Below, in pieces: positions 14,424 to 37,955 of a DNA stretch of 64,000 bases. The notes under the pieces were generated by a model that searched no databases, had not been told where the DNA came from, and saw nothing but the letters and a program-made list of their open reading frames with translations. The stretch's first letter is position 1, and the number at the start of each line of letters is the position of its first letter. Source of the stretch: Alphaproteobacteria bacterium (GTDB lineage: Bacteria; Pseudomonadota; Alphaproteobacteria; Rhodobacterales; Rhodobacteraceae); NCBI GenBank assembly GCA_030431825.1, contig JAUIIJ010000002.1, positions 1 to 64,000 of the forward strand, in the 5' to 3' direction. The translations under genes were made by a program, and so were the position numbers.

Positions 14424-16022
14424 TTACTGAACCATTCCGCTCAGCTGCTTTTCAAGCTGTTCCTGAATCTGATCGACCGAGAAGCTCGCTGCCTTTTGTG
14501 ACGGCGGATATTCTTCGAATGTCGAAAAGAACCGCGCAACCTCAACCTGTGCCGGAGTCATCAGGAAAACGCGATCGAGCAGCCAGTCGTAATAGGTGTT
14601 CGACGTCCGGTCGGCCCGCTCATAGGGATCCGAGCGCAGGTCGAACAGTTTCGGCACACGCAACTGGGTGAAAGGTTCTGCCCAGATGTTCAAGGTACCC
14701 TTCGCGCGTTGCTCCTGGAAAACGAATTTCCAGTTTTCGTAGCGCAGGGCAACGAGAGCGCCATCGTCGTTGAAATAGAAGAATTCCTTGCGCGCGGTTT
14801 CGTCGGCTTCGCCGGTCAGATAGGGCAGCTGGTTGTAGCCATCCAGATGAACCTTGTACTCCTTGCCATCGACAGTCGTGCCTTCCAGCAGGCGCTGTTT
14901 GATGTCTGTATCGCCGGCGGCCGCCATCAGTGTCGGGAACCAGTCGAGCCCCGAGAACATACCGTTTCTGACCGTGCCTGCCTCGAACTTGCCGGGCCAA
15001 CGGATCATCGCGGGCACCCGGAACGCACCTTCCCAGTTGGTGTTCTTTTCACTGCGGAACGGCGTCGTACCGGCATCCGGCCAAGAGTTCTGGTGTGGGC
15101 CGTTATCGGTCGAATACATCACGATCGTGTTGTCTGCGATGCCCATCTCGTCCACCGCATCCAGGATTTGGCCGACGATACCGTCATGTTCGATCATGCC
15201 ATCCGCATATTCGGTCAGCGCGGTCAGGCCGGGGTCACTGCGGTTCTCTTTCTTGACATGCGTGCGGAAGTGCATCCGCGTGGTGTTCATCCAGACAAAG
15301 AACGGCTTGCCCTGCTCGACCTGCCGCTTCATGAAGTCGATGGCTGCGGCCGAGGTTTCCTCGTCCACGGTTTCCATGCGCTTCTTGGTCAGCGGCCCGG
15401 TATCTTCGATGGCCCCGTCAGCCGAGGATTTGATCACACCGCGCGGTCCGAAATTCTTGCGAAACTCCGGATCGGTCGGATAGTTGAAATTCTCGGGCTC
15501 TTCCTCGGCGTTCAGGTGATAGAGGTTGCCAAAGAACTCGTCAAAACCATGCGCCGTGGGCAGAAACTCGTCCTTGTCGCCCAGATGGTTCTTGCCGAAC
15601 TGACCGGTCGCATAGCCCAGATCCCTGAGTGCCGATGCAAGCGTCACATCGTCATCGCGCAGGCCGATATCGGCACCGGGCAATCCAACCTTGCTCAGCC
15701 CGGTGCGCAAGGTGGACTGGCCCGTGATGAAAGTCGACCGCCCCGCCGTACAGCTCTGTTCGGCATAGTAGTCGGTGAACATGATGCCTTCGTCGGCGAT
15801 CCTGTCGATATTGGGCGTTTCATATCCCATCAGCCCAAAGCTGTAGGTCGAAATATTGGTTTGCCCGATATCATCCCCCCAGATCACGAGGATGTTGGGC
15901 TTTTCCTCCTGCGCGTTCGCCGGTGCGGCAAGTGCAGCGGCAAGCGTAACCGTAATGGCGAGCGCGGCGACCCGCCCCGGCCGGCCCGCCCCGCGTTGCG
16001 GAACATAGGTTTCTGGTAACAT
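14424..16022 (-). CDS. Exported arylsulfatase-type sulfatase
   Basis: A 532-residue sulfatase. A signal peptide is evident (basic RPGRVAALAITVTLAAALAA, then APANAQ cleavage region at ~31-38). The mature start PNILVIWGDDIGQ is the metal-binding motif. CTAGR at Cys91-Arg95 fits the CxAxR formylglycine motif, so it needs a maturase or formylglycine-generating enzyme (none in this window). MYSTDNGPHQNSWPDAG supplies the second metal site. It should cleave sulfate esters in the periplasm; substrate unknown. Start at 16022 is chosen because a GGGGGA ribosome site precedes it and the signal peptide then begins properly. It is divergent from the Crp/Fnr gene. Confidence 0.92.
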   Translation of the reverse strand: MLPETYVPQRGAGRPGRVAALAITVTLAAALAAPANAQEEKPNILVIWGDDIGQTNISTYSFGLMGYETPNIDRIADEGIMFTDYYAEQSCTAGRSTFITGQSTLRTGLSKVGLPGADIGLRDDDVTLASALRDLGYATGQFGKNHLGDKDEFLPTAHGFDEFFGNLYHLNAEEEPENFNYPTDPEFRKNFGPRGVIKSSADGAIEDTGPLTKKRMETVDEETSAAAIDFMKRQVEQGKPFFVWMNTTRMHFRTHVKKENRSDPGLTALTEYADGMIEHDGIVGQILDAVDEMGIADNTIVMYSTDNGPHQNSWPDAGTTPFRSEKNTNWEGAFRVPAMIRWPGKFEAGTVRNGMFSGLDWFPTLMAAAGDTDIKQRLLEGTTVDGKEYKVHLDGYNQLPYLTGEADETARKEFFYFNDDGALVALRYENWKFVFQEQRAKGTLNIWAEPFTQLRVPKLFDLRSDPYERADRTSNTYYDWLLDRVFLMTPAQVEVARFFSTFEEYPPSQKAASFSVDQIQEQLEKQLSGMVQ

Positions 16023-16239
16023 GCGTGAATTCCCCCGTGGTTTCATTTCAATGGTCCAAGCCCATGTCAGGGCTTGTTGTTCCTGAGAGCGACGAAAGCG
16101 CATGGCTGGCAATATTGGCTGGCTGGGCCGGATTCTCTCCGCTCCGCATCACGTGGCGATGGGTGGACAGAACACAACCTGGCGCGATTTTACCTTTCGC
16201 CAAATCCCGTGAATGTTGTGCCACGAACCGGGGTTGCAG

Positions 16240-16262
16240 GAATTGATCATTTGATCCAATTC
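16240..16262. promoter_or_regulatory. Candidate Crp/Fnr-type dyad
   Basis: Inverted repeat GAATTG (16240-16245) and CAATTC (16257-16262) with an 11-nt spacer containing two GATC words, 15 nt before the Crp/Fnr ATG. It lies in the divergent promoter region (16023-16277) shared with the sulfatase, so it may be an autoregulatory site. Inferred from symmetry and location only. Confidence 0.33.
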
Positions 16263-16277
16263 TGGCAAAAAATTTTT

Positions 16278-16961
16278 ATGACAATTGACCTTGAAGCAGC
16301 CGATCGCCTCTTCAAATGCCGGGGATGGCTATCGGATTACCCGGCGCCCCTGCGGCGCAGACTTCTGGCCTGCGGTGGGCTGCGACGTTTCAAGGCCGAT
16401 GACACGATCTATTGCGTGGGTGACGTATCCGACGGGATTTACGGGATCATTGAGGGTCAGGTCACGCTTTCGATCCCGACTGACACCGGAACGATTTATG
16501 ATTGCTACGTAGCTCGCCCGGGTTTCTGGATCGGTGATCTGGCCTCATTTTCCAGAACCACCCGGCTGGTCACGCTGACCGCCGATACAGATGTCGCCTG
16601 CTGGTTCCTGCCTCAGGCGCGGCTGTATGACCTGATCCGCACCAATCCCAACCTCATCAGCCCGTTCTACGCACTCACGCATCGAAACATGGCCACCCTG
16701 ATGCGGTTGATGGCGATCCTCGCGATACCTGACAAATCGCGTCGGCTGGCCGCGTGGTTGCTGTTTTCCAACGACAATCTGCTGAAGATCGGGGGATGGA
16801 TTGATGCGTCACAGGAAGAGATCGGCATGAAAAACATCATGTCTCTGCCGACGGTGCGCCGCCTGTTGCAGCGGCTGGAAAACAAGGGTCTGATCGAACT
16901 GGGTTATGGCAAGCTACGCGTGACAGACCGGAAAGGGCTGCTCGCATTCAGTCGTTCGTGA
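16278..16961 (+). CDS. Crp/Fnr-family transcriptional regulator
   Basis: A 227-residue regulator. Residues ~25-130 form a cyclic nucleotide-binding-type beta roll (LRRFKADDTIYCVGDVSDGIYGIIEGQV, RPGFWIGDLASFSRTT); the C-terminal half holds a winged helix with SQEEIGMKNIMSLPTVRRLLQRLENKGLIEL as recognition region. There is no N-terminal Cys cluster, so it is not an Fe-S Fnr. The start is uncertain: the ATG at 16278 has no good ribosome site, while a TTG at 16251 has AGGA upstream. It sits just before the octaheme cytochrome gene and divergent from the sulfatase, both plausible targets. Confidence 0.85.
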   Translation: MTIDLEAADRLFKCRGWLSDYPAPLRRRLLACGGLRRFKADDTIYCVGDVSDGIYGIIEGQVTLSIPTDTGTIYDCYVARPGFWIGDLASFSRTTRLVTLTADTDVACWFLPQARLYDLIRTNPNLISPFYALTHRNMATLMRLMAILAIPDKSRRLAAWLLFSNDNLLKIGGWIDASQEEIGMKNIMSLPTVRRLLQRLENKGLIELGYGKLRVTDRKGLLAFSRS

Positions 16962-17029
16962 CCCGTCGGCGACTTGTTTCAAAAGGCGAGATGCCGGATA
17001 AGCGGATTGAAGCCAGGGCAGGGCCAATC

Positions 17030-18979
17030 ATGCGCATTACACCTCTGATCACGATTGCAGCCTTGTCGATCGCTGTTTTCAACGACGCGGCGATGGGACA
17101 GCAAGCCGACAACCATCCCGCATATATCGGCAGCGACACCTGCACGGGATGTCACGAGCAACAGGCCGAGGCCTGGCAAGGATCGCATCATCAACTGGCA
17201 TGGACCAGACCAGACAGCGACGCTCTGCTGGGCGCGTTCGATGGCCAAACGATCTCGTCCGCCGGGTTGCAGGCGCGGTTCCTCAGCCTCCCCGACGGCC
17301 CCGCAATCGAGACCGCCGGCCCGGATGGAAAAATGACAACCTTTCCCGTCGCGGGCGTCGTGGGGATCGAGCCGCTGCAGCAATATCTGCTCGAAACCGA
17401 ACCCGGACGGCAACAATCCTTTGATCTCGTATGGGACCGCGAGCGCAAGCGCTGGTATCATCTTTACCCGGATCAGGACCTGCGCCCCGATGACGGGCTG
17501 CACTGGACCGGCCCTTACAAGAACTGGAACGCCCGTTGCGCGGAATGCCATGCGACCGGTTTCGAAAAGAACTATGAGGCGCGCACAAAAACCTATTCCA
17601 GCACCCAGTCCGAAATCGGCGTGGGTTGCGAAGCCTGCCACGGACCCGGCGCGGCGCATCGCGACTGGGCCCTGGCGAATGGTAACTATGACGCAACGCA
17701 ATGGACCGGGCTGTCCGAAACCGGGCTGACCATGGATTTCAACGCCGGTGCGGAAGCGCAGGTTCAGCAGTGCGCCGGCTGTCATTCCCGGCGCGAGGCC
17801 TTTGCCGCCGGCAGCCCGCTCCCCGGGACACCGTTTCATGACTCGTATCGGCTCTCGACACTCAGGCCCGGACAATATCATCCCGACGGCCAGATCCTCG
17901 ACGAGGTGTATGTCTATGGCTCTTTCCTGCAATCGCGCATGTATGCCAAGGGCGTTGCCTGCACCGATTGCCACGATCCCCACACGGCCGGGCGGGTCGC
18001 CGAGGGCAACGCCGTCTGCACGCAATGCCACTCGCCCGCCGGGAATGACCGGTTTCCATCGCTGCGCCGTGCGCAGTATGACGATCCCACACACCATTTT
18101 CACGAGGCCGGCAGCGAAGGCGCGCAGTGCAAGACCTGCCACATGATCGAGCGCGTCTACATGGGAATTGACGGGCGGCGGGATCATTCGTTCCGCGTGC
18201 CGCGCCCGGATCTCAGCTCTGAAACCGGCGCACCCAATGCCTGCACCGACTGCCACAGCGACAAAACGGCGGAATGGGCTGCCGATGCCGTCGCGCGATG
18301 GTATCCGGACAGCACCCGGCGCGGTCCGCATTTCTCGCAGGTGATCGCCCCGGCCCGCCGAAACCCGGCCCAGCAGGTCGAGGGCCTGATCGGCATTGTC
18401 GAGCACGCGGAATTGCCTGGCATCGTGCGGGCAAGTGCGCTGGATTTACTGGCACAGGTGTCCTCGCCGGACATCGCGGCACGATTGGTGCCGGCCCTGT
18501 CCGACCCCGATCCGCTGGTGCGTGCGGCCGCCGTCTCGGTGCAACGCGGCGCGGAGCAGACCGATATTCTGGCGCGGATTGTCGGTCTGCTCGGCGACCC
18601 GGCCAAAACCGTGCGTATCGCGGCCGCGAGAGAGTTCCTCGCCCTGCGCATCGCGCGCATGCCGGACAGTTACACAAAGGCCCTGAACGGCGCGATGACC
18701 GAGTGGCAGCGCGCGCTGCTGGCCAACGCAGATTTCCCTGAAACCCAACTCGTCATGGCGGGGATCGGGTTGACCACGCGCAATATGTCTGCCGCGCTCG
18801 GTGCCTTTGGCGAAGCGGTGGACATGGACCCGCAGCTTGTCCAGGCCTGGACGATGATGGTGCGCATTCACGCCGCGCTCGGCGATCGCGAGGCGGCACT
18901 GGACACCGTGAACCGGGCGATTTCCGCCAATCCCGATGACGTGTCACTGGGCCTGATGCGCGCCGACCTTGGCGGCTAA
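17030..18979 (+). CDS. Exported octaheme cytochrome c with HEAT/TPR-like C-terminus
   Basis: A 649-residue protein. A signal peptide (MRITPLITIAALSIAVF, then AAMG before QQADN) directs export. Eight CxxCH motifs bind haem c, beginning at Cys38, 170, 200, 248, 311, 330, 367 and 405. Residues ~435-560 are alpha-helical HEAT-like repeats (EGLIGIVEHAELPGIVRASA, RLVPALSDPDPLVRAAAVSV), and ~590-645 look like TPR (ALGAFGEAVDMDPQLVQAWT). The front resembles the cytochrome c554 group. It likely moves electrons in the periplasm; the redox partner is unknown. An ATG at 16991 is also in frame, but the signal peptide fits 17030. It follows a Crp/Fnr gene by about 70 nt. Confidence 0.88.
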   Translation: MRITPLITIAALSIAVFNDAAMGQQADNHPAYIGSDTCTGCHEQQAEAWQGSHHQLAWTRPDSDALLGAFDGQTISSAGLQARFLSLPDGPAIETAGPDGKMTTFPVAGVVGIEPLQQYLLETEPGRQQSFDLVWDRERKRWYHLYPDQDLRPDDGLHWTGPYKNWNARCAECHATGFEKNYEARTKTYSSTQSEIGVGCEACHGPGAAHRDWALANGNYDATQWTGLSETGLTMDFNAGAEAQVQQCAGCHSRREAFAAGSPLPGTPFHDSYRLSTLRPGQYHPDGQILDEVYVYGSFLQSRMYAKGVACTDCHDPHTAGRVAEGNAVCTQCHSPAGNDRFPSLRRAQYDDPTHHFHEAGSEGAQCKTCHMIERVYMGIDGRRDHSFRVPRPDLSSETGAPNACTDCHSDKTAEWAADAVARWYPDSTRRGPHFSQVIAPARRNPAQQVEGLIGIVEHAELPGIVRASALDLLAQVSSPDIAARLVPALSDPDPLVRAAAVSVQRGAEQTDILARIVGLLGDPAKTVRIAAAREFLALRIARMPDSYTKALNGAMTEWQRALLANADFPETQLVMAGIGLTTRNMSAALGAFGEAVDMDPQLVQAWTMMVRIHAALGDREAALDTVNRAISANPDDVSLGLMRADLGG

Positions 18980-19109: not shown

Positions 19110-19691
19110 TCAGCGCAGACCATCCTCGCCCCTGACGTCCTCGGCGGCCAGTCCGCCCATGCGGTGATGGATGCGCGGGCCCCGCGCCATTGCCAGCGCG
19201 AACAACAGTTCGGCGGCACGCGGTCCGTCCGGGACACCGACCTCCATTCCGTCAAAATGGCTGCGCACATACGCCGCGTTGATATGACCGAGCGGAATGT
19301 CGATCCGGGTGCCGACCCCGCCCATCTTCATCGACGAGGGCACGATTGCCCGGGCCTCGCCCAGACGCTCGCGCATCGCATAGCCGCCGGGCACGTGCCA
19401 CAACGCGGTGTGCTCCAGTTCTCCGCCTTCTCCCGCAAGCGACGCCTTGCCGTAAGCGTCGATGCCCTCGATCCCGCCCATCGCCTCGATCAGCCGGTCG
19501 GTCATTTGCAGGCCCAGCGGTTTCAAATCCTCCATCGCCGATTGCAGGTCCGCGGCATACTCTCCGGCGAACGGGTTGCGGACCAGGGCAACGATGGCCG
19601 CGCGCCGCCGCGGCAGCGCAGGCGCAGGCCCGCCATCGTGATGGATATCCTCGACAAAGAGCATCGTCTTGCGCAGGGCAAAGTCAGGCAT
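19110..19691 (-). CDS. DUF1185 (amino acid synthesis family) protein
   Basis: A 193-residue cytosolic protein of the family named 'amino acid synthesis' (DUF1185), whose biochemical role is not established. Recognisable parts are KTMLFVEDIHHDGGP, VALVRNPFAGEYAADLQ, YGKASLAGEGGELEHTALWH and KMGGVGTRIDIPLGH. The ATG at 19691 is chosen because the homologous start is MPDFALRKT; the frame runs further upstream into the UPF0280 gene. It is the last gene of the leftward molybdenum hydroxylase/6-hydroxynicotinate reductase-like unit and overlaps UPF0280 by 8 nt, so it likely serves the same pathway. Confidence 0.83.
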   Translation of the reverse strand: MPDFALRKTMLFVEDIHHDGGPAPALPRRRAAIVALVRNPFAGEYAADLQSAMEDLKPLGLQMTDRLIEAMGGIEGIDAYGKASLAGEGGELEHTALWHVPGGYAMRERLGEARAIVPSSMKMGGVGTRIDIPLGHINAAYVRSHFDGMEVGVPDGPRAAELLFALAMARGPRIHHRMGGLAAEDVRGEDGLR

Positions 19692-20538
19692 ACAATCTAT
19701 CCCTTTCCGGTTGTGTGAGATATTCCGTCGCGCCCACCACCCGTTCATGCGGTCCCAGTTGCAGGTGGGCGGAGATGATATGACCCCGCGACAGGCAGTC
19801 GGCGGCCAGTCGGGCGCCGGCGGTCAGCGCGGTCAGCATGTCGTCATGCGACAGCGGGCCGACATCCACGGTCACCAACCGCTCTCCCAGATCGCTGTCA
19901 GGCGCAATATCGCAGGCCCGCACCCGCCGGATCGCCGCATGCATGGGCAGGTCCACGGCGTTGGCAATCAGGGTTGCGGCGACATCCGCCTGTGCAGCCG
20001 TTCTGGCGAGCACGGTGACGCTGTCCGCGATGCCCAGCGAATGACTGCGACCCCGCCAACCCGATGTGGCAACACCGCGAACGGGGCTGTCGGCACAAAG
20101 TGTCAGACGTGGCGCCGAAGCGGCGGCGATGACCGAGGTCAGGCGTTCACCCGGCGCGAGGTAAAGGGCAACGTCGCCCCCGTTATTGACATAGGCCCGG
20201 CGCAACGGACCGGCGGCGCACAGCGCGGCCAGCATCTCGTCGGCAACGGCTCCGGCAACGGCGGCCATGGGCGTGACAAATCCCGGCAGATGCACCGACA
20301 CCGCGTCCTGCATCGCCCGAGCGATCCGACCCCGCGCAAACTCGGCGTGGCCAGCGGGGCGGCGCAGGATGTCGAGTTCAGAGGCCAGTTCGGACAGAAG
20401 CGTATCGAACCGCCTGACGGCCCCGTGCAGTGCCGCCTCGCGCGCCTGCCCTACCGCATCGACGATGAGATCGATGGGACCGTGATGGAAATGCCATCTG
20501 TGCCCATCCGGCAGGACCGATATCTGTGGCCCCTGCAT
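19684..20538 (-). CDS. UPF0280 family (ApbE-like) protein
   Basis: A 284-residue protein of the UPF0280/COG2122 group, related to the ApbE flavin transferase fold. Visible features are GPIDLIVDAVGQAREAALHGAV near the N-terminus, a Gly/Ala-rich central stretch MAAVAGAVADEMLAAL, YVNNGGDVALYL and GVATSGWRGRSHSLGIADSVTVLA. ApbE proteins attach or hydrolyse FMN/FAD; whether this group does is not known. The ATG at 20538 has GGAG upstream and follows the 6-hydroxynicotinate reductase-like stop by 1 nt, showing translational coupling in the leftward unit. Confidence 0.85.
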   Translation of the reverse strand: MQGPQISVLPDGHRWHFHHGPIDLIVDAVGQAREAALHGAVRRFDTLLSELASELDILRRPAGHAEFARGRIARAMQDAVSVHLPGFVTPMAAVAGAVADEMLAALCAAGPLRRAYVNNGGDVALYLAPGERLTSVIAAASAPRLTLCADSPVRGVATSGWRGRSHSLGIADSVTVLARTAAQADVAATLIANAVDLPMHAAIRRVRACDIAPDSDLGERLVTVDVGPLSHDDMLTALTAGARLAADCLSRGHIISAHLQLGPHERVVGATEYLTQPERDRLYA

Positions 20539-20539
20539 T

Positions 20540-21991
20540 TCAGCTCCGTTTCCGCGCCACGGCCCGTGAATCCGCCCCGTATGCGCCGCCGGTTTCCAGA
20601 ACATCGTCAAGGGTCCGAACCGCCCCGTCATGTCCGCCCAATGCGCGATAATCGTCACGGCGCAGGGTAAATTCCAGCGGGGCCACAATCGCCGGCGTCG
20701 GCACATAGCCAAAGGCATCATCGGGCATCTGGGTCACATCCGCCATCAGGGTAATACCGCCACCCGGCCAGACATAGGCCCGGGCCCCACCAACCGTCAC
20801 CTGTGTCTTGAGCGCCTGAACCGAACGGGTCAGCTGCACCGGGTTTTTCGTCACGCCCGAACGCAACGATCCGCCGGCCCCGCCCATGAACATCACCGTG
20901 CACATCGCGGGTTCGCAATTCTCGGCGATGAGATCGACCGAGGGTTTCAACGCGTCAGGCAGGTCGGCGGGCCGCGGCACGAGCGCGTCATCCAGCACGT
21001 AATACCCCCATTGCTCGCCCGTGGTCGACACCATCAGCAGCGTCAGACCGGGGTGTGCGCCCTTTTTCGGGTTCCAGTCGCCCAGGATGGTCAGCGGGTC
21101 GGTGATGTCGGTGCCACCCCATCCCAGCCCCGGCTCGGCGACCTGGAAATAGCGGCCGGGGGTCGAACGCCGTCCCTTGATCCGAATGCCAGTATCCGGC
21201 CAGCCCAGAACCTTGCCCGCCTGATGTTCGCTGACCACACCGGTGATGTGATCATCGACGACCACGACCTCGTCAACCAGCCCCTGCCACTGGACCGCGA
21301 ACATCCCGATTGTCGCCGATCCGCAGCCGACGCGCATCCGTTCTTCCCGGTGCCCGTCTACAACCGGTGCCTGCCCGGCCTGCACGACGACCGTCGCGCC
21401 GCCATCCACCTCGAGCGCGACCGCTTCGCGATTGCACAGCCGCATCAGGGTATCGCAGGTCACGCGGCCTTCGGGCTTGCTGCCACCGGTCAGGTGGTCG
21501 ACACCGCCCAGGCTCATCATCTGGCTGCCATATTCGCTGGTGATCATCAGGCCGACCGCTTCGCCTTGTGCCCGCACCACTGCGCCCTCGCGGCCGATAT
21601 GCCGGTCGGTGTCGATCTTAACCTTGACCCCGCAATAGGAAAAGATCGCTTCGGTCACCACGGTGACAAAGTCCACACCGTCGATTTCGCGGCTGACGAT
21701 GAAGGGCGCGGGCTTGTAGTCGGGATAGGTCGTGCCCGAACCCACCGCCGTCACAAAGAGATCGTCGCCAGCCACCAGCCCGCCATCCCAGTCGGATTTG
21801 AGAAATGGCCGAATTTCGCCGCCCTGTTCGATCCGCCGGTCCAGAACCGTCAGCGGATCGCAGCGGATGATCCGCCCGTCCCGGTTGGCATAGCGGTCGC
21901 AGGCCCCGATCTTGCCCTCCGCGATATAGCACATGACCGGGCAGGCATCGCAACGTATCTTGTCCGCCGGCGTGGTCCGTTGCCTATCCAT
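20540..21991 (-). CDS. 6-hydroxynicotinate reductase-like Fe-S protein
   Basis: A 483-residue protein resembling annotated 6-hydroxynicotinate reductases, which reduce 6-hydroxynicotinate to a tetrahydro-6-oxonicotinate in reductive nicotinate degradation. An N-terminal Cys cluster (C14, C17, C21, C31: CDACPVMCY then GACDRY) probably binds an Fe-S centre. The rest carries Gly-rich segments GSGTTYPDYKPAPF, SEYGSQMMSLGGVDHLTGG and PGGGITLMADVTQMPDDAFG. It overlaps the Mo-hydroxylase gene by 8 nt, which fits a hydroxylase-then-reductase order. The exact heterocycle is not determinable from sequence. Start chosen at 21991 (MDRQRTTPADKIRCDAC). Confidence 0.8.
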   Translation of the reverse strand: MDRQRTTPADKIRCDACPVMCYIAEGKIGACDRYANRDGRIIRCDPLTVLDRRIEQGGEIRPFLKSDWDGGLVAGDDLFVTAVGSGTTYPDYKPAPFIVSREIDGVDFVTVVTEAIFSYCGVKVKIDTDRHIGREGAVVRAQGEAVGLMITSEYGSQMMSLGGVDHLTGGSKPEGRVTCDTLMRLCNREAVALEVDGGATVVVQAGQAPVVDGHREERMRVGCGSATIGMFAVQWQGLVDEVVVVDDHITGVVSEHQAGKVLGWPDTGIRIKGRRSTPGRYFQVAEPGLGWGGTDITDPLTILGDWNPKKGAHPGLTLLMVSTTGEQWGYYVLDDALVPRPADLPDALKPSVDLIAENCEPAMCTVMFMGGAGGSLRSGVTKNPVQLTRSVQALKTQVTVGGARAYVWPGGGITLMADVTQMPDDAFGYVPTPAIVAPLEFTLRRDDYRALGGHDGAVRTLDDVLETGGAYGADSRAVARKRS

Positions 21992-24743
21992 CCGCCTGCC
22001 CCCCCTGCGCGGCCCGGATCGCCGCCAGAACCCGATGCGGCAGTGCCGGCAGCCGGGTGATCCGGGCGCCGCTGGCGTCACGGATCGCGTTCAGGATCGC
22101 CGGGGCGGTCGGGATCAGCACGTGCTCCCCCAGCCCCTTGGCCCCCATCGGTCCCTCCGGATCGGGTTTCTCGATAAGGATCGACCGTATTTCCGGCATG
22201 TCCCCGGTTGTCGGAATCAGGTAATCATGCAGGTTCTCGGTGCGCCCCGGTAGGTACTCCTCCATCAGCGCCATGCCGAGCCCCTGTGCTATGCCGCCTT
22301 CGATCTGGCCCTCGGCCAGCAGCGGGTTGATGACCTTCCCGAGATCATGCGCAGCCGTGATCCGCTGCACCCGGGCCGTGCCGAGTTTCATGTCGACATC
22401 CAGTTCGACAAGCTGGGCCCCGTAGCCATAGACCGCATAGGGGCTCCCCTGCCCGTTTTCATCCAGCGGCAATGTCGGCGGGTCATAGCTCTGCTCGGCC
22501 ATGATCGCGTAGCCACGGGAATTCACCGAAAGTTCCGACAAGGCGATGCTGCGCCGCTCTTCGCCGTCGGTCACATGCAACATCGTCCCCTCAAGCACGA
22601 TCCGCGCACCATCGCCCATGTTGCTGCGCGCCAGGATGTCCGCTCGCAGCGCGGCACCGGCCAACATCGCCGCCTTGCCGGTGATGACCGTCTGGCGCGA
22701 GGCCGAGGTCTTGCCGCAATCCGGTGTCATCGCGGTATCCGGGCCGATCAGGTCGATCTGCGCCACCGGCAGACCGATGGCATCGGCGCAGATCTGGGCG
22801 ATCACGGTATTCGACCCCTGCCCGATATCGGTGGCCCCCTGATGCAACACGAGCCGCCCGTCAGGCGTGAGTCCGACACGAATGGTCGAAGGGTTCGGCA
22901 GCGCGGTATTGCCGCAGCCATACCAACAGGCGGCAACGCCGATTCCGCGTCTGATGTGACCCCGGCGCGCATTCATCGCGGCCGCGACCCTCTGCGCCTC
23001 GCTCCACGGATCGCGCAGCGCATCGAGGCAGTCGACAATCCCGACCCCGTACAGTTCCTGACCGCAGACCGACCGGTCCCCGTCCTGCAGGGCATTGAGC
23101 CGCCGGAACGCCAGCCGGTCGATTCCAAGATCATTTGCCAGATCGTCAAACAGCGTTTCCTGCACGATTGCGGCCTGCGGCACGCCAAAGCCGCGAAACG
23201 CACCGGCAACCGGACCATTGGTATGAACGGCGCGCGCTTCGCTGTGATAATGCGGGATGCGATAGGGACCCGAGGCATGCACCGGCACACGCACCGCGAC
23301 CGTCGGCCCCCAACTGGCATAGGCACCGGTATCGAAATCTCCGTCGAACTGCATTCCGGTGACGCGGCCTTGCCCGTCTGCCGCGATCCGCGCGGTCATC
23401 CGCGCCGGGTGACGTTTGGTGGTCGAGCGCATGCTTTCGCTGCGCGAATAGACCATGCGCGCCGCACGTCCGGTCTTGAGCGCGACAAGCCCGATCAAGG
23501 GTTGCAGCGACAGATCAAGCTTGGATCCGAACCCGCCACCGGTTGCCGACGGGATGATCCGCACCTGCTCGGGCGGGAGCCCGAGAACGCGCGCGGTATC
23601 GTCACGGTCCATGACCGGCGCCTGCGTACAGGCCCGGATGACGAGGATCCCGTCATCCATCCAGGCGACACCGGCCTCGGGTTCGATATAGGCGTGTTCC
23701 ACATGGGTGGTCCGGAATTCAGCCGTCGCAACATGCGCCGCCCCGGCGATCGCAGCCGCCGGTTCCCCACACCGGACCTTGCCGGTGATCAGGATGTTGT
23801 CACTTCGCTCGGGATGCACCGACCGCGCGCCCGCCTGCCGCGCCGTTCCCGGTGTGGTCAGCTCTTTCTCCGGCTGCCATGTCACGGGAAAGCTGCCAAG
23901 GTCGAGCATTTCCATCAGTTCCGGGATGCCCGCGACGACGGCCACGGCCTCGCCCCGCATCCGGACATGACGTTCCGCGAGGGCCGGTTGATCGGCAAAG
24001 CTCGGGATCACGCCAAACCGGTTTTCGCCGGGGATATCGGCGGCGGTCAGGACAAGCAGGTCGCCGGCCTGGGCCGCAACCCATTCCGCGATGTCGCCGA
24101 AATGAAACCGCGCGGCGGCATGAGGCGAGCGGACCGCCCGCACCAGCAATGCACCCTCCGGGCAATGATCGGCACCGAACCTCTCGGACCCGGCAACTTT
24201 GGCGGCCCCGTCGAGCCGGGACATGCGGGCACCCACCGCAGCACCGGCACCTGGTGTCTCGGGCATCGCCTGCACCGCGGAGAGATCCACATCCATCACC
24301 GCGGCAATGATCTTGGAATAGCCGGTACACCGACACAACACTCCGCCAAGCGCCGCTTCGGCCTGACCGCGCGTGGGGTTGGGCGTTTCGCGCAACAGCG
24401 CGGTCGCCGCCATCAGCATTCCTGGCGTGCATATGCCGCACTGGGCCGCGCCGTGGCGCTGAAATGCCTGTTGCAGGCCGAGCAGTATTCCGTCGCGCGA
24501 CAAGCCTTCGACGGTTTCGATGCGACATCCGCGCGCCCGCGCCACCGGGGTCAGACAGGCGCAGACAGCGGCCCCGTCCAGAAGCACGGTGCAGGCACCG
24601 CAATCACCCGCGTCACAGCCGACCTTGGTGCCGGTCAGTCCAAGCTCGCCACGCAAGGCTTCGGACAATCGTCGCCCCGGCGCACAGCCGAGCGTGACCG
24701 GGGTGCCGTTGACCGTCATGTGCGGGGCGGCATGATCCTTCAT
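21984..24743 (-). CDS. Molybdenum hydroxylase, fused 2Fe-2S and Mo subunits (xanthine dehydrogenase family)
   Basis: A 919-residue fusion. Residues ~1-160 hold two [2Fe-2S] centres: plant-type C43, C48, C51 and C61/C63, then C102, C105, C137 and C139 (CGIC...CRCTGYSKI). Residues ~185-919 are the molybdopterin domain with GGGFGSKLDL, AGAFRGFGVPQ, ATDIGQGSNT and the C-terminal PMGAKGLGEH whose Glu is the likely catalytic base. Such enzymes add oxygen from water to a carbon next to a ring nitrogen. These parts are usually two polypeptides, so the fusion is notable. The start overlaps the FAD-subunit stop (ATGA). The neighbouring reductase suggests a nicotinate-like substrate. Confidence 0.9.
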   Translation of the reverse strand: MKDHAAPHMTVNGTPVTLGCAPGRRLSEALRGELGLTGTKVGCDAGDCGACTVLLDGAAVCACLTPVARARGCRIETVEGLSRDGILLGLQQAFQRHGAAQCGICTPGMLMAATALLRETPNPTRGQAEAALGGVLCRCTGYSKIIAAVMDVDLSAVQAMPETPGAGAAVGARMSRLDGAAKVAGSERFGADHCPEGALLVRAVRSPHAAARFHFGDIAEWVAAQAGDLLVLTAADIPGENRFGVIPSFADQPALAERHVRMRGEAVAVVAGIPELMEMLDLGSFPVTWQPEKELTTPGTARQAGARSVHPERSDNILITGKVRCGEPAAAIAGAAHVATAEFRTTHVEHAYIEPEAGVAWMDDGILVIRACTQAPVMDRDDTARVLGLPPEQVRIIPSATGGGFGSKLDLSLQPLIGLVALKTGRAARMVYSRSESMRSTTKRHPARMTARIAADGQGRVTGMQFDGDFDTGAYASWGPTVAVRVPVHASGPYRIPHYHSEARAVHTNGPVAGAFRGFGVPQAAIVQETLFDDLANDLGIDRLAFRRLNALQDGDRSVCGQELYGVGIVDCLDALRDPWSEAQRVAAAMNARRGHIRRGIGVAACWYGCGNTALPNPSTIRVGLTPDGRLVLHQGATDIGQGSNTVIAQICADAIGLPVAQIDLIGPDTAMTPDCGKTSASRQTVITGKAAMLAGAALRADILARSNMGDGARIVLEGTMLHVTDGEERRSIALSELSVNSRGYAIMAEQSYDPPTLPLDENGQGSPYAVYGYGAQLVELDVDMKLGTARVQRITAAHDLGKVINPLLAEGQIEGGIAQGLGMALMEEYLPGRTENLHDYLIPTTGDMPEIRSILIEKPDPEGPMGAKGLGEHVLIPTAPAILNAIRDASGARITRLPALPHRVLAAIRAAQGGQADG

Positions 24744-25579
24744 GGCGTCCCCACAATTCCCGCCAGCGCACGATTGATGAGTTCGGCAGCCGCCTCGCTT
24801 CGATAGGATGCATCCGCACGGATATCGGAGATCGGGGACAGGCACGCCGCCACCTGTGCGACGCCGACGCCACCGGCAAGTTCCTGCACCGGGCGACCGA
24901 TCAACTCACGTTCCAGATCGCGCAGACGAACGGCCACGGCACTGCAGGACCCGACAGCAAGCGCGAGATCGCTGATCGTGTCATCGTCCACCACCACCCT
25001 GACGGCAACCATCGCGATCGAAATGACCAGGTATTTTCGCGCACCGAGTTTGAGAAACCTGCTGTTGCCGTGACCTGCCCGCGCGGGAACATGAACCGCC
25101 GTCAGCAATTCGTCCGGGCGGCGGCAGGTCTGGCGAACATCGACGAGAAACTCCGCAAGCGGCAGGCGCCGCGCGCCGCTCGCACCGATCAGTTCCACCT
25201 GCGCATCCAGCGCCAGCAATGGCGGCACACCATCCGCCGCGGGCGACGCGTTGCAGAGATTTCCCGCCACCGTCCCGGCATTCTGGATCTGTCGCGAACC
25301 AACTTCGACTGCGGCCTGTTTCAGCATGTCAAAGGCGGCCGGCAACGCAGCGACACGTAAATCCGACCATGTCGTTGTCGCGCCGATACGCCAGCCGTCC
25401 TCCGTCTGCGTGATACCGCGCAAAGTGTCTATCGCGGTTATGTCGAGGATCGGACCCGTCAGTTCCGGATATTCGGTCGCCGGAAACAGATCGGTGCAAC
25501 CGGCCGCAACCACCGCGCCCGTCTCGGCCAGCACGCCGAGCGCATCGGTCAGTGTGTCGGGCCGGTGATAGCTGGACAC
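24740..25579 (-). CDS. FAD-binding subunit of molybdenum hydroxylase
   Basis: A 279-residue CoxM/XdhB-type subunit that passes electrons from the 2Fe-2S centres to the acceptor. The FAD motifs VVAAGCTDLFP (~24-34) and QIQNAGTVAGNLCNASPAAD (~97-116) are present, followed by a C-terminal CO-dehydrogenase flavoprotein domain. The start is GTG at 25579 with AAGGA upstream. It is the first gene of the leftward unit and is divergent from marR. The stop overlaps the next start by 4 nt. Confidence 0.9.
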   Translation of the reverse strand: MSSYHRPDTLTDALGVLAETGAVVAAGCTDLFPATEYPELTGPILDITAIDTLRGITQTEDGWRIGATTTWSDLRVAALPAAFDMLKQAAVEVGSRQIQNAGTVAGNLCNASPAADGVPPLLALDAQVELIGASGARRLPLAEFLVDVRQTCRRPDELLTAVHVPARAGHGNSRFLKLGARKYLVISIAMVAVRVVVDDDTISDLALAVGSCSAVAVRLRDLERELIGRPVQELAGGVGVAQVAACLSPISDIRADASYRSEAAAELINRALAGIVGTP

Positions 25580-25694: not shown

Positions 25695-26126
25695 ATGGCA
25701 CAACAGCCCACCGATGACGCGGATTACGTGCTTGACCGACAGGTCGGCTTCATCATGCGGCAAGCCAATCAACGGCATCTCTCGATCTTTGCCCGTCATA
25801 TCCCCGAGTTGACTCCGATGCAGTTCGCCGCCCTTGCACAGCTTTGCGCATTGGGCCCGGTGTCGCAGAATGCCCTCGGACGGGCGACCGCGATGGATGC
25901 GGCGACGATCAAGGGCGTGATCGACCGGCTGCGCCTCAAGGGCTACATCGCCTCTGCCGCCGATCCCGACGACCTGCGGCGGGTCCTGCTGACGGCAACC
26001 GTCGAAGCCCGGGCGGCCTTTGACGCGCTGGTGCCCCTGGCCCACGGGATAACCGCCGAAACGCTGGATCCGCTGGACCCGGCCGAACGTGTCGAATTCC
26101 TGCGTCTGCTGTCCAAGCTGCGCTGA
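25695..26126 (+). CDS. MarR-family transcriptional regulator
   Basis: A 143-residue winged-helix regulator: DRQVGFIMRQANQRHLSIFARH dimer helix, LTPMQFAALAQLCALGPVSQNALGRA, and the recognition helix and wing MDAATIKGVIDRLRLKGYIASAADPDDLRRVLL. It resembles the subgroup that senses aromatic or N-heterocyclic acids and controls catabolic genes. It is divergent from the FAD subunit gene and its stop lies 3 nt from the livF stop, so it is enclosed by the island and is its likely repressor. Confidence 0.9.
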   Translation: MAQQPTDDADYVLDRQVGFIMRQANQRHLSIFARHIPELTPMQFAALAQLCALGPVSQNALGRATAMDAATIKGVIDRLRLKGYIASAADPDDLRRVLLTATVEARAAFDALVPLAHGITAETLDPLDPAERVEFLRLLSKLR

Positions 26127-26129
26127 GCC

Positions 26130-26825
26130 TCAGACCCCGAGATGCCGCTCGAGTATCGCGTGATCCTGGCGCAGGGTGGCTGCGTCGAGCGTTTCGAGAT
26201 TCTGGCCGTTCTCGATAAAGCACACCCGGTCGGCAACGGACAGGACCGCATCGACACGCTGCTCCACCAGCAGGATCGCGACACCACGATCCCGCATCAC
26301 CGTGATGACCTCGCGGATCGCCTCGATCATCGACGGCTGTAGCCCTTCGGTCGGCTCATCCAGCAAAAGCACCTTGGGCTGCAGGCACAGTGCGCGGGCG
26401 GTGGCAAGCATCTGCTGCTCGCCGCCCGACAGGGTTTCCGCGCGCTGTTGCAGGCGTTCGCGCAAGCGCGGAAACAGCGTCAGCACGTCCTCCAGCACCT
26501 CGGGTCCGGAGCCGCGCGCCATCAGGCCAATCTCGAGATTCTGCGCCACGCTCAATTCGGTGAACAGCCGTCGGCCCTGCGGGATATAGCCGATCCCGGC
26601 TCTGGGCACGTGATGCGCCGGCAACGCACCGATGCTCCGCCCGTCAAGACGGATGTCCCCCGAGAGCAGCGGCAACAGACCCATGATCGCCTTCATCGTC
26701 GTGGTCTTGCCCGCGCCGTTCCGCCCCAACAGGCAAAGAATCTCGCCCGCGCGGACCGAGAAACTCAGGTCACGCAGGATTTGCGCCGGGCCATAGGCCA
26801 CGTCTATCCGAGATACATCGAGCAT
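26130..26825 (-). CDS. livF: ABC transporter ATP-binding protein, LivF type
   Basis: A 231-residue ATPase of a branched-chain amino acid-type importer. Walker A GRNGAGKTTTM (~35-45), signature LSGGEQQMLATARAL, Walker B VLLLDEPTEGLQP. It overlaps livG by 1 nt. The livF-livG-livM-livH order runs leftward with each stop overlapping the next start. HAAT-type importers often take up organic acids and amides, so this set may serve the neighbouring catabolic genes. Confidence 0.93.
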   Translation of the reverse strand: MLDVSRIDVAYGPAQILRDLSFSVRAGEILCLLGRNGAGKTTTMKAIMGLLPLLSGDIRLDGRSIGALPAHHVPRAGIGYIPQGRRLFTELSVAQNLEIGLMARGSGPEVLEDVLTLFPRLRERLQQRAETLSGGEQQMLATARALCLQPKVLLLDEPTEGLQPSMIEAIREVITVMRDRGVAILLVEQRVDAVLSVADRVCFIENGQNLETLDAATLRQDHAILERHLGV

Positions 26826-27532
26826 CAGCCGGTCCCCAGATAGGCAGCCTGAACCGCCCGATCTGCCCGAATTTCGCCGGGCGTACCTTCGGCAAGAACC
26901 TGACCGAAATTCAGCACCGTGATCTGGTCGGCGGTCTCCATCACCACCGCCATGTTGTGTTCGATCAACAGGATCGTGGACGTGGCCGAGAGATCGCGCA
27001 CCAGCGTCTTGAACGCCTCGATCTCGCTGTCCGCAAGCCCCTGTGTCGGTTCGTCCAGGATGAGCAGGCGGGGCTGCTGCACGACACCCATGGCGATTTC
27101 GAGCAGCCTTTGATGTCCATAGGAGAGATCGCTGGCATTCTGTTCAGGCGGTTCGTGAAGGCCGACACGTTCCAGCGCATCGGCCACCGCGACATCCACA
27201 TCCGCGCCGCGCAGACTGCGCCGCGCCGCCAGTGCGACATTCTCGGCAATCGTGAGATTGGCAAAGACCGAGGTGATCTGAAACGTGTAGGCGATGCCGA
27301 GATTGATACGCTTGTGCGCGGGCAGGTCCGAAATGTCGCGATCGTCGAAACGAACCGTGCCCGCCGTCGGTTCGACCCGCCCACAGAGCATGCCGACAAA
27401 GGTGGTCTTGCCGGCCCCGTTGGGTCCGATCAGCGCGCGCACCTGCCCCCGGGGCAAATCGAAATCCACGTTCTCGACCGCGTGCAGGCCGGCGAATTGC
27501 TTGGTGAGCCCACGGGTCTCAAGCAGGGTCAT
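26825..27532 (-). CDS. livG: ABC transporter ATP-binding protein, LivG type
   Basis: A 235-residue ATPase, second nucleotide-binding subunit. Walker A GPNGAGKTTFVGML (~36-49), the family-specific IAYTFQITSVFANLTIAENV, Walker B LLILDEPTQGLADSE and the H-loop LIEHNMAVVMETAD. Starts within the livM stop (4-nt overlap). Confidence 0.93.
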   Translation of the reverse strand: MTLLETRGLTKQFAGLHAVENVDFDLPRGQVRALIGPNGAGKTTFVGMLCGRVEPTAGTVRFDDRDISDLPAHKRINLGIAYTFQITSVFANLTIAENVALAARRSLRGADVDVAVADALERVGLHEPPEQNASDLSYGHQRLLEIAMGVVQQPRLLILDEPTQGLADSEIEAFKTLVRDLSATSTILLIEHNMAVVMETADQITVLNFGQVLAEGTPGEIRADRAVQAAYLGTG

Positions 27533-28473
27533 GGCAGGCCCCGCCAGAACCGCTTGCGAATTTCACCCACCAGCCCCTGCGGCGCGAACAGCGTCAGCGC
27601 CACCAGCACCACACCGGCAATCAGCATATAGGCCGTGGTGACACCGCTTGAGAGGTCGATCAGGTAGAACATGAACAGTGTCCCGATGAATGGCCCCAAT
27701 ACGGTGCCCGCCCCGCCCAGGAGCACCCAGAGCAGCGGAAAGATCGAATACTGCACCGAGGCAAAGCTGGCCCCGACATATCCGAACAGCAGGCCATACA
27801 CCGCCCCCGCCATCGCCGAGAGCGTACCCGAGAGCACCACGGCCCCCAGTTTGTGCGCGAACACGTCATAGCCCAGCATCCGCGCCCGCTCTTCGTTCTC
27901 GCGGATCGCGACCAGCACCTTGCCGAACGGAGCCCGCACCAACCACAGCGTCAGCAGCAGGCAAAGCGCGAAGAGCGCAAATGCCGCGAAATAGCGGTTG
28001 GTCGGATCGGAAAGATCCAGCCCCCAGAGAATCCGCTCTGCCTGTTGAATGACGAAGCCTTCGTCGCCGCGCGTGTATTCCCCGAAATAGAGCAGCGTGA
28101 GATACCCAGCCTGCGCGAACATCAGGGTCACGATCATGAAACCGACCCCGACAGTGCGCAGCGCGAGCAGCCCCGCAATCGTGGAAATCGCCACCCCCGC
28201 CGCAAGACCGCAGAGCAGGGCCGCCGAAGGCGACAGGCCGAGATGGCGGATCGCAAGCCCCATGCCATACATCCCGGCGGCAAAGAACAGCGCATGACCG
28301 AGGCTGAGCAGCCCGGTGTATCCAAAGAGAATGTTGAAGCCGATCGCATAGCTGGCCAGCACCATGATTCGTGCCAGATTGCCGTGGTGATAGGCCGGGA
28401 GCAGGAATTGGAGCACGAAAAGCAGGACCAGCAATCCGGCATGCAGGATCAGCGTCTTGGTCCTGTCACTCAT
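27529..28473 (-). CDS. livM: Branched-chain-type ABC permease LivM
   Basis: A 314-residue inner-membrane permease with about nine to ten hydrophobic segments and the family signature GYTGLLSLGHALFFAAGMYG near residue 51, plus the EAA-like cytoplasmic loop AIRENEERARMLGYDVFAHKL. Overlaps livH by 4 nt and livG by 4 nt. Confidence 0.93.
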   Translation of the reverse strand: MSDRTKTLILHAGLLVLLFVLQFLLPAYHHGNLARIMVLASYAIGFNILFGYTGLLSLGHALFFAAGMYGMGLAIRHLGLSPSAALLCGLAAGVAISTIAGLLALRTVGVGFMIVTLMFAQAGYLTLLYFGEYTRGDEGFVIQQAERILWGLDLSDPTNRYFAAFALFALCLLLTLWLVRAPFGKVLVAIRENEERARMLGYDVFAHKLGAVVLSGTLSAMAGAVYGLLFGYVGASFASVQYSIFPLLWVLLGGAGTVLGPFIGTLFMFYLIDLSSGVTTAYMLIAGVVLVALTLFAPQGLVGEIRKRFWRGLP

Positions 28474-29396
28474 GCGCGGCGCACCCCGAACAGGCCCTGT
28501 GGCCGGAAGACCAGAACCAGCGCCACCAGTAGCGTCGCGAGAATTTTTGCAAGGGTTGGCGAGAAGAAGACCGAGATGATGCCGTCGGACAGGCCGATCA
28601 GGATCGCGGCAACCACGGTGCCCGGCAGGCTGCCCAGACCGCCGATGATGACCACGACGAACGACAGCAAGAGCGGATCGCCCCCCATCAGGTAATGCGC
28701 CTGCTGGATCGGCACGATCAGCACCGCCGCCAGCGCCGCCAGCCCGGCGCCGAGGCCGAAGACCAGCGCATAGACCCGTTCGACCGGGATACCGAAGGCC
28801 AGAGCCATGTCACGGTCAAGCTGTGTCGCGCGCATGATCAGGCCGATCTTGCTGCGCGCCATCAGCAGCCAGACGCCGACCAGAACCAGCGCCGCCGCAG
28901 CGATCACGCCGAGCTTGTAGGTTGTCGTCGACAACCCCCAGGGCCAGTAGATCCGGGGCTTGCCCTCTACGAACTCGAACCACGGTATCGCCAGCCGTGT
29001 GTTGAACGGGGGCTCGACCGGACGGGCATCCGGGCCATAGGTCATCAAGGTAACCTGCTGGATTATGTAGAGTATCCCGATCGTTGCAACGATCGTGCGT
29101 TCCGGGTCATAGGAAATCCGCTTGAGTATCGTCATGTCTGCGAGCGCCGCCAACCCGCCCACGAGCAAGGGCACGACGAGCAGCGCCACGGCGAACCCGA
29201 GCGAGGGGTGGCCCGCGACCTGGCTGCTGATCCACCAGGCCAGCACCGCACCCAGCATGAAGAACTCGCCATGCGCGACGTTGACCACGCGCATGACGCC
29301 GAACACCAGCGAAAGCCCGACCGCCGTCAGGGCGAGCACCGCGGCTGTCACTGCGCCTTCCAGCGAGGCAAGCAAGAGATAAGGACCGATTTCCAT
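28470..29396 (-). CDS. livH: Branched-chain-type ABC permease LivH
   Basis: A 308-residue inner-membrane permease. Signature segments are GLSLVFGVMRVVNVAHGEFFML near residue 25 and the EAA-like loop MRATQLDRDMALAFGIPVERVY, with a C-terminal VIIGGLGSLPGTVVAA. The ATG at 29396 (MEIGPYLLLASLEG) is chosen because the hydrophobic start then matches the family. It is first in the leftward livHMGF order. The binding-protein gene lies upstream on the same strand but is separated by an opposite-strand gene. Confidence 0.92.
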   Translation of the reverse strand: MEIGPYLLLASLEGAVTAAVLALTAVGLSLVFGVMRVVNVAHGEFFMLGAVLAWWISSQVAGHPSLGFAVALLVVPLLVGGLAALADMTILKRISYDPERTIVATIGILYIIQQVTLMTYGPDARPVEPPFNTRLAIPWFEFVEGKPRIYWPWGLSTTTYKLGVIAAAALVLVGVWLLMARSKIGLIMRATQLDRDMALAFGIPVERVYALVFGLGAGLAALAAVLIVPIQQAHYLMGGDPLLLSFVVVIIGGLGSLPGTVVAAILIGLSDGIISVFFSPTLAKILATLLVALVLVFRPQGLFGVRRA

Positions 29397-29535
29397 TGCC
29401 GCGCACGATTGCCCAGGAACGCGGATTGGGCAAGGGCAAGCAGCGATCCGTTGTTGGAAAAACCCGCATCCTGTTGTGTACTGGTCGCTGTCCGGGCATC
29501 GGACCGGTCGGCTGTCACAGGGGAGGATTGTTCGC

Positions 29536-31701: not shown

Positions 31702-31778
31702 GGCAAATGTCCCTGTAAAACCGTTTTGGCCTGTTCCCGTGCTTGCAGTCTTCAATGTTTTCCGGGCGGCGGCAATGG

Positions 31779-34016: not shown

Positions 34017-34077
34017 CAACAAGGGCCGCTTGCGGACACCATTTGCACACAAACAATCTCGGGAGCCGGAAAACCTG

Positions 34078-37877: not shown

Positions 37878-37955
37878 TCGGGCGTGAATCCGCTGGACAA
37901 CCGTCACGCCACTTGCCGAAACTCGGACGGCAATCAACAGGGAGCAGAGGCCGAC

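Follow-up and report, generated by a model that had tools for sequence, protein, structure and literature searches.

Reductive breakdown of nicotinate through 1,4,5,6-tetrahydro-6-oxonicotinate (THON) is described for aerobic alphaproteobacteria, namely Azorhizobium and Bradyrhizobiaceae, in PMC3511419. The operon considered here lies in a 64,000-nucleotide (nt) stretch of a Rhodobacteraceae genome (assembly GCA_030431825.1, contig JAUIIJ010000002.1, positions 1 to 64,000), termed the window, and encodes the two subunits of a molybdenum (Mo) hydroxylase, a 6-hydroxynicotinate reductase-like iron-sulfur (Fe-S) protein (HNR) and members of the UPF0280 (COG2122) and DUF1185 families. COG2122 and DUF39 proteins are needed for homocysteine synthesis in Desulfovibrio, COG2122 being described as a distant relative of ApbE; the catalytic Ser/His/Asp set of ApbE and its target motif D-x-x-[ST]-G-A-[ST] are given in PMC12052999. 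TgnF, a relative of DUF1185, is cited in PMC7913881 as a stimulator of succinate semialdehyde oxidation when trigonelline is degraded. Comparison with related loci suggests that the operon is probably part of a catabolic island that degrades nicotinate, or a 3-carboxypyridine closely resembling it, by the reductive THON route with the hydantoinase-type pair HyuAB replacing enamidase.

Operon structure and survey of HNR loci

All five genes, located on the minus strand, are open frames. The sequence-only reading of the window had described five leftward genes that overlap or abut, and the coordinates (Table 1) bear out every junction: 4-nt and 8-nt overlaps at FAD/Mo and Mo/HNR, a 1-nt gap at HNR/UPF0280 and an 8-nt overlap at UPF0280/DUF1185. 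Pfam domains place the predicted hydroxylase in the xanthine dehydrogenase family. The best solved relatives of the Mo subunit are the aldehyde oxidoreductases 1dgj and 1sij; nicotinate dehydrogenase 3hrd matches too, with a lower score.

The same reading had called for a neighbourhood survey of the five-gene order. This was performed on 165 loci with an HNR relative, comprising the window, 80 named contigs, 8 plasmid regions and 76 regions from further genomes, and retrieved UPF0280 in 163 and DUF1185 in 132 of them, far above chance. Loci L235-L238, from the window's genus or near kin, were left out as already counted among the named loci, and some overlap between named contigs and other genomes is possible. 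Since at least 45 of the 165 loci are on contigs that end early, a gene missing from a locus does not equate to absence. A second survey covered 385 alphaproteobacterial genomes, in which weak matches (HNR in G077 and G206; UPF0280 in G123, G133, G145, G167, G335 and G347) were excluded before the sets were compared. Ring-opener orthologues were defined by at least 549 bits for enamidase (next best 327) and at least 790 bits for HyuA. The HNR tree was computed by a quick method and the Mo-subunit tree with FastTree, neither with bootstrap.

Interchange of probable ring openers around HNR

Two enamidase homologues from sister HNR-UPF0280-DUF1185 clusters match the Eubacterium barkeri enamidase (PDB code 2vun) over their full length (E of 1e-106 and 2e-111). 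The window's genome has no enamidase match at E <= 0.001; HyuA and HyuB are encoded instead at 33973-37877 on the plus strand, and this probable ring opener had passed without mention in the sequence-only reading. Across the 165 loci, HyuA/B was found in 58 and an enamidase homologue in 27, both in none and neither within the fetched stretch in 80. The 68 HNR genomes divide likewise into 29 with an enamidase orthologue only and 37 with a HyuA orthologue only, none having both and two (G250 and G337, 70% and 86% complete) having neither. The HyuA score of every enamidase genome is at most 630 bits, and the HyuA orthologue occurs in only two of 80 HNR-negative genomes (G138 and G407, of one genus).

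The exchange of openers runs across the HNR phylogeny. On the HNR tree (106 rows of known opener) at least eight opener changes are needed, six of them forced by starred branches, and hydroxylase type (NicAB versus FAD + Mo/Fe-S) changes at least five times; the Mo-subunit tree (82 rows) requires at least six opener changes, four of them forced. Both hydroxylase types occur with both openers in the 165 loci (Mo/Fe-S with Hyu, 45; Mo/Fe-S with enamidase, 19; NicAB with Hyu, 6; NicAB with enamidase, 6). In the HNR alignment no column tells the enamidase-type proteins apart from the HyuAB-type ones, and 171 of 482 columns hold an identical residue in at least 95% of both groups. Openers and hydroxylases interchange around an unchanged HNR, as would be expected of enzymes with common intermediates; this is the main argument for HyuAB opening THON, from which we infer that HyuAB takes the place of enamidase. 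HyuA and HyuB score above the cut-offs of the hydantoinase/oxoprolinase A and B families (PF01968, PF05378 and PF02538), and their nearest named NCBIfam models are the caprolactamase alpha and beta subunits. Caprolactamases are ATP-dependent lactam openers.

Several observations weigh against this interpretation. HyuAB reaches only 496 (alpha) and 306 (beta) bits with the CapA and CapB models, half or less of their cut-offs of 1000. The exclusivity of the two openers (Fisher, 3e-17) is computed with kinship ignored. The 790-bit line for HyuA was chosen once the data had been seen and does not divide them sharply, with scores of 763 and 759 in the HNR-negative genomes G035 and G119 and paralogues at 753 and 726 in G146 and G313. 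A remote member of the enamidase family (37-41% identity, 173-297 bits) is encoded in three HyuA genomes (G128, G313 and G088), and seven enamidase genomes have a protein of this kind as an extra copy. HyuA often lies far from HNR (~77 kb in G159, a separate contig in G146), one of 940 Mo-subunit columns does separate the openers, and the missing enamidase in the window's genome is weak evidence at 85.7% completeness.

The two HyuAB orthologue pairs without HNR (L265 in G138 and L266 in G407) adjoin another Mo hydroxylase subunit, L266 containing in addition a MarR-like regulator, an MFS transporter, a beta-keto acid cleavage enzyme and a Rieske oxygenase; these pairs belong perhaps to the pathway of another heterocycle.

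Substrate and proposed pathway

In 10 of the 165 loci, HNR has a nicotinamidase gene no more than 9 kb away, all 10 over the curated cut-off, whereas fewer than one would be expected by chance (a rough estimate from one gene per 4-5 Mb genome and ~20 kb inspected). Two of these loci carry HyuAB (L220 and L222), three enamidase (L169, L213 and L214), and in five the opener is outside the locus (L218, L219, L223, L029 and L018). Two facts temper this signal: five of the ten (L218, L219, L220, L222 and L223) share family code f174, and the window's own neighbourhood contains no nicotinamidase. The nicotinamidase genes near HNR favour nicotinate, as do the sister clusters with enamidase and the THON cluster known from the literature.

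The pathway steps, the substrate and the reactions are those that we infer from homology and context. A Liv-type transporter would import the substrate, which the FAD and 2Fe-2S/Mo hydroxylase would convert to the 6-hydroxy (6-oxo) compound. HNR would then reduce one ring double bond, generating THON, and HyuAB, at the cost of ATP, would hydrolyse the lactam to an enamine, leading to 2-formylglutarate and ammonia. DUF1185 may help convert the formyl dicarboxylate or semialdehyde toward glutarate. UPF0280 would perform no pathway step but would be indispensable for the maturation of HNR, whose flavin is the most likely target. MarR would be the regulator.

The coupled hydroxylase-reductase pathway for an N-heterocycle proposed from the letters alone gains support, the HNR-UPF0280-DUF1185 unit being found elsewhere with enamidase homologues, NicAB-type hydroxylases and nicotinamidase. 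The idea of a wholly unknown heterocycle is not supported, and a reductive route in an aerobe is not new given the THON route already published for Azorhizobium and Bradyrhizobiaceae. By homology, the system is probably a modified form of the reductive nicotinate route already described.

Other readings of the HyuAB-type clusters were considered. They might degrade a related pyridine, such as N-methylated trigonelline, and release methylamine rather than ammonia. An N-methyl lactam would be a fitting substrate for a HyuAB that resembles N-methylhydantoinase, the best solved relative of HyuA is labelled N-methylhydantoinase, many HyuAB-type carriers are marine and TgnF is cited from the trigonelline pathway in PMC7913881. 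This is nonetheless improbable, as the openers swap on a single HNR tree with no diagnostic column, both occur with NicAB-type hydroxylases and nicotinamidase lies in two HyuAB-type loci; methylamine genes were not found among the eight annotated of 14 recurrent neighbour families, the other six being partly shadow frames. Somewhat less credible still is that HyuAB is a frequent neighbour acting on some other lactam or hydantoin while an unrecognised enzyme opens the ring. HyuA paralogues are plentiful (up to 16 matches per genome) and HyuA is not always near HNR, but exactly one opener orthologue is present in 66 of 68 genomes, at least six swaps are forced and the HyuA orthologue is rare where HNR is lacking.

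A unit handling picolinate or homarine (N-methylpicolinate) appears very unlikely. The homarine operon is reportedly distributed in Rhodobacterales and SAR116, overlapping the carriers described here, and is said to yield N-methylglutamate and glutamate, to which hydroxylation, reduction and lactam opening of homarine would not lead directly. The bacterial homarine pathway, published in 2026, is cited in PMC13390433. The enamidase and nicotinamidase of the sister clusters again indicate nicotinate.

UPF0280 as a partner of HNR

UPF0280 of the window scores 336.5 bits with the NCBIfam equivalog NF003322 (cut-off 290). Only two of the 165 HNR loci lack the gene, L065 and L060, whose contig ends in HNR. 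Strong matches to HNR and to UPF0280 were each found in 68 of the 385 genomes, and the two sets of 68 are identical. UPF0280 behaves as an obligate HNR accessory, which sharpens the earlier suggestion that UPF0280 and DUF1185 are uncharacterised steps or maturation factors: the first follows an obligate-accessory pattern and the second, in 59 of the 68 genomes, that of a variable later step. In L097 and L230 a MarR gene is interposed between HNR and UPF0280, and adjacency is therefore not required. Eight SAR116 loci (L040-L042, L044 and L047-L050) display a more distant UPF0280 (~30-34% identity) together with transporter genes, and no DUF1185 within the fetched stretch.

The predicted structure of UPF0280 (predicted local distance difference test, pLDDT, of 95.1) displays an ApbE fold, with Z scores of 20.7 to DVU1097 (PDB code 2o34) and 14.2-15.8 to ApbE/Ftp proteins, the next fold scoring 7.7. 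Alignment by hhalign with 19 ApbE sequences selected by phmmer gave 95.3% over 92 columns (E of 2e-8), compared with 0.1% for the controls HNR and DUF1185; against the single ApbE that a motif filter kept from 25 loci, the value was 57.5%. Ser-154 and Asp-180, invariant in 62 rows, align with the ApbE TSG and ADxxxT motifs and correspond to the catalytic Ser and Asp; the Thr of ADxxxT is invariant too.

The odds that UPF0280 is a maturation factor of HNR, with attachment of flavin as its probable mode of action, may be put at even or slightly below. Against flavin attachment stand the catalytic His of ApbE (V. cholerae His-257), which is not conserved in UPF0280, where the ApbE loop falls in an alignment gap (His-161 of the window protein is near this place but outside the conserved columns), and a Pfam ApbE (PF02424) score of 13 bits, below the cut-off of 25.6. 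The target motif D-x-x-[ST]-G-A-[ST] is absent from HNR; the nearest is GAGGSLR[SA]G[VA][TAV], in which the last, flavinylation-like position is Thr in 158 of 168 sequences, Ala in 9 and Val in 1. In addition, COG2122 elsewhere serves homocysteine synthesis, with a sulfur role proposed for it. The word UPF0280 was not found in the searched literature, where work on COG2122 deals with homocysteine.

The main competing reading, somewhat less likely, takes UPF0280 as a sulfur- or Fe-S-related HNR factor rather than a flavin transferase, and does not exclude the rival readings of the substrate and opener. The lack of a conserved catalytic His and the several conserved Cys of HNR would agree with such a role; the ApbE fold, the retained Ser and Asp positions and the absence of any invariant Cys in UPF0280 (62 rows) argue for a flavin transferase, as does the covalent flavin that E. 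barkeri Hnr is reported to carry. In line with a sulfur-related role, PMC12068725 describes MA1715 as a sulfide-assimilation trafficking protein. A broader proposal, unlikely in its entirety, is that UPF0280/COG2122 proteins form a cytosolic ApbE branch with a different general base that attaches covalent flavin to a single specific client (HNR in this case, and by analogy the DUF39 homocysteine enzyme of methanogens and sulfate reducers), and that in the same operon HyuAB and enamidase replaced one another, in one direction or the other, no fewer than six times.

Properties of HNR

No Pfam or NCBIfam model matches the window's HNR at E <= 0.001, and this putative reductase takes its name from relatives annotated "hnr" or "6-hydroxynicotinate reductase". 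The tree that contains it also includes HNRs from enamidase clusters. Cys-44, Cys-47, Cys-51 and Cys-61 (numbering from the GTG at 22081) are invariant in 55 rows. The predicted model has a mean pLDDT of 74.9, with residues 1-36 and 89-125 below 50, and its best PDB match (Z of 4.6 over 67 residues) reflects a weak likeness to glycine-cleavage T-protein, echoed by Pfam below cut-off in two other HNRs; the lack of a match does not establish that the fold is new. As to a possible kinship of HNR with DUF39 (PF01837), Pfam matched this family in none of three HNRs up to E 10, and a sample of 100 genomes from the phylum, including that of the window, contained no PF01837 protein. Thr-411 of the GSLRxGVT motif was rejected as a universal flavin site in view of the Ala and Val substitutions given above; Ser-405 of this motif does not vary across 55 rows, but nothing marks it out. 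In the one-contig genome of L216 (G052:C1:2969796-2971231), HNR is divided between two frames, with a 4-nt overlap near profile residue 254, and represents a split enzyme or else a frameshift.

Looser association of DUF1185 with HNR

The DUF1185 protein scores 215.5 bits with PF06684 (AA_synth, formerly DUF1185; cut-off 27). The family was found in 82 of the 385 genomes, 59 among the 68 HNR genomes and 23 outside (one of the latter below cut-off), and is present in 29 of 29 enamidase genomes and 29 of 37 HyuA genomes. Two copies are seen in 27 of 38 enamidase-type loci and 10 of 68 HyuAB-type loci. DUF1185 behaves as a looser partner, like a variable later step. Its solved relatives are BB2672 (PDB code 3byq; E of 8e-53) and SPO0826 (PDB code 2qtp; E of 5e-43). 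Action on the formyl or semialdehyde compound that ring opening would leave fits both TgnF and the relatives known as structures without function, but within the model this role is the least secure. The window's genome contains another DUF1185 copy (L267; G000:C5:27722-28129), which covers profile positions 39-175 with one internal TGA and is near genes for a thiamine pyrophosphate enzyme, an alpha/beta-hydrolase and a cyclase.

Genes surrounding the operon

Upstream of the operon lie a divergent regulator, transporter genes and, farther out, HyuAB (Table 1). The same genes are found together in relatives: all four Liv genes recur across related loci, and on a Fuscovulum ytuae plasmid the set from MarR to HyuB forms a single contiguous block. 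The HyuAB-type cluster of Sagittula stellata E-37 (L095), a culturable strain, is likewise on a plasmid. Family homology of HyuA begins near residue 45 of the called frame, and its true start is probably downstream of the called one.

Table 1. Coordinates of the operon and neighbouring features in the window
Feature	Position	Strand	Basis and remarks
FAD subunit of Mo hydroxylase	24740-25579	-	PF00941 (FAD_binding_5), PF03450 (CO_deh_flav_C); GTG start
Fused 2Fe-2S/molybdopterin subunit of Mo hydroxylase	21984-24743	-	PF00111 (Fer2), PF01799 (Fer2_2), PF02738 (MoCoBD_1), PF20256 (MoCoBD_2)
HNR, 6-hydroxynicotinate reductase-like Fe-S protein	20540-21991	-	hnr annotation of relatives
UPF0280 (COG2122), ApbE-like fold, proposed HNR maturation factor	19684-20538	-	NF003322, fold, co-occurrence
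DUF1185/AA_synth protein, proposed to act on ring-opened product	19110-19691	-	PF06684
MarR-family regulator, divergent from operon	25695-26126	+	PF12802, PF01047; recurs in related loci
LivF, LivG, LivM, LivH branched-chain-type ABC transporter, proposed uptake system	26130-29660	-	Homology; LivH start uncertain
Periplasmic substrate-binding protein	30412-31809	-	PF13458; start uncertain
Hydrophobic (membrane) protein without Pfam match	31779-33194	-	Recurs beside Liv genes
HyuA, hydantoinase/oxoprolinase A, proposed ATP-dependent ring opener	33973-36138	+	PF01968 (291 bits), PF05378 (184 bits)
HyuB, hydantoinase B	36135-37877	+	PF02538 (520 bits); 4-nt overlap with HyuA

A molybdopterin S/N-oxide reductase of the bisC family (37884-40262, plus strand) starts 6 nt past HyuB; it scores 954 bits against a subfamily cut-off of 1018, and only two other of the 165 loci (L051 and L079) have a relative. 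On the other side, past the operon, positions 14424-18979 encode a sulfatase-like protein, a Crp-type regulator and a long protein in which CxxCH motifs are numerous, a group kept in the near relatives L003, L235 and L238 and partly in L236. A flavoenzyme of the old yellow enzyme family, 700 residues long, is located 6-8 kb from HNR in 15 of the 165 loci (14 among L054-L077, plus L208), its nearest model being mycofactocin OYE 2, with a score under cut-off. Ten loci (L190 and nine others) have a class III CoA-transferase near HNR, which could activate glutarate; no model cut-off was reached.

Comparison with known systems

As far as the searched literature shows, two features are new, namely the repeated exchange of enamidase and HyuAB for one another and the strict co-occurrence of HNR and UPF0280; hydantoinase was not found there in work on enamidase, 6-hydroxynicotinate or nicotinate catabolism. 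If correct, the proposals would provide a gene-level marker set for aerobic nicotinate breakdown in marine Rhodobacterales and SAR116, and would reveal the repeated swap of one catabolic step between unrelated ATP-free and ATP-dependent enzymes in an otherwise fixed operon. HNR would also become a tractable aerobic partner with which the function of UPF0280/COG2122, required yet unexplained in the homocysteine synthesis of sulfate reducers and methanogens, is directly testable.

The COG2122 proteins of Desulfovibrio and methanogens (DVU1097, the 2o34 structure; DvMF_0044; MA1715) belong to the same family as the window's UPF0280 (profile match E of 5e-12; root mean square deviation (rmsd) of 3.1 over 213 residues). 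They work with DUF39 in homocysteine synthesis, unlike here, where PF01837 was absent from the genomes sampled. The ApbE/Ftp FMN transferases superpose on UPF0280 with an rmsd of 3.1-3.8 over 202-215 residues and align at the GGD, TSG and ADxxxT motifs; they differ in the catalytic His loop and in the Pfam score. In the DUF1185 family, BB2672 and SPO0826 likewise lie near branched-chain-type transporters (PMC2954203) and have no assigned function, whereas the window's DUF1185 is tied to an HNR operon. Caprolactamase CapAB, N-methylhydantoinase and 5-oxoprolinase, of the ATP-dependent hydantoinase family, share Pfam domains with HyuAB (solved relatives 7hk5 and 6yra), although by the standard of the model cut-offs CapAB and HyuAB do not have the same function.

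The closest systems are the THON clusters of E. barkeri, Azorhizobium caulinodans and Bradyrhizobiaceae SG-6C, which, according to PMC3511419, likewise comprise a hydroxylase, HNR, a third-step gene, an ABC transporter and two conserved unknown proteins. NicAB, HNR, UPF0280, DUF1185, a transporter and enamidase are found together in L166, L225 and L227. The window's genome differs from the THON clusters in having HyuAB and no detected enamidase, and in a hydroxylase made of an FAD subunit and a fused 2Fe-2S/Mo subunit. Enamidase, of the amidohydrolase superfamily, and HyuAB are unrelated protein families for which the same job, opening THON, is proposed here, and in the 68 genomes examined their orthologues never share one genome.

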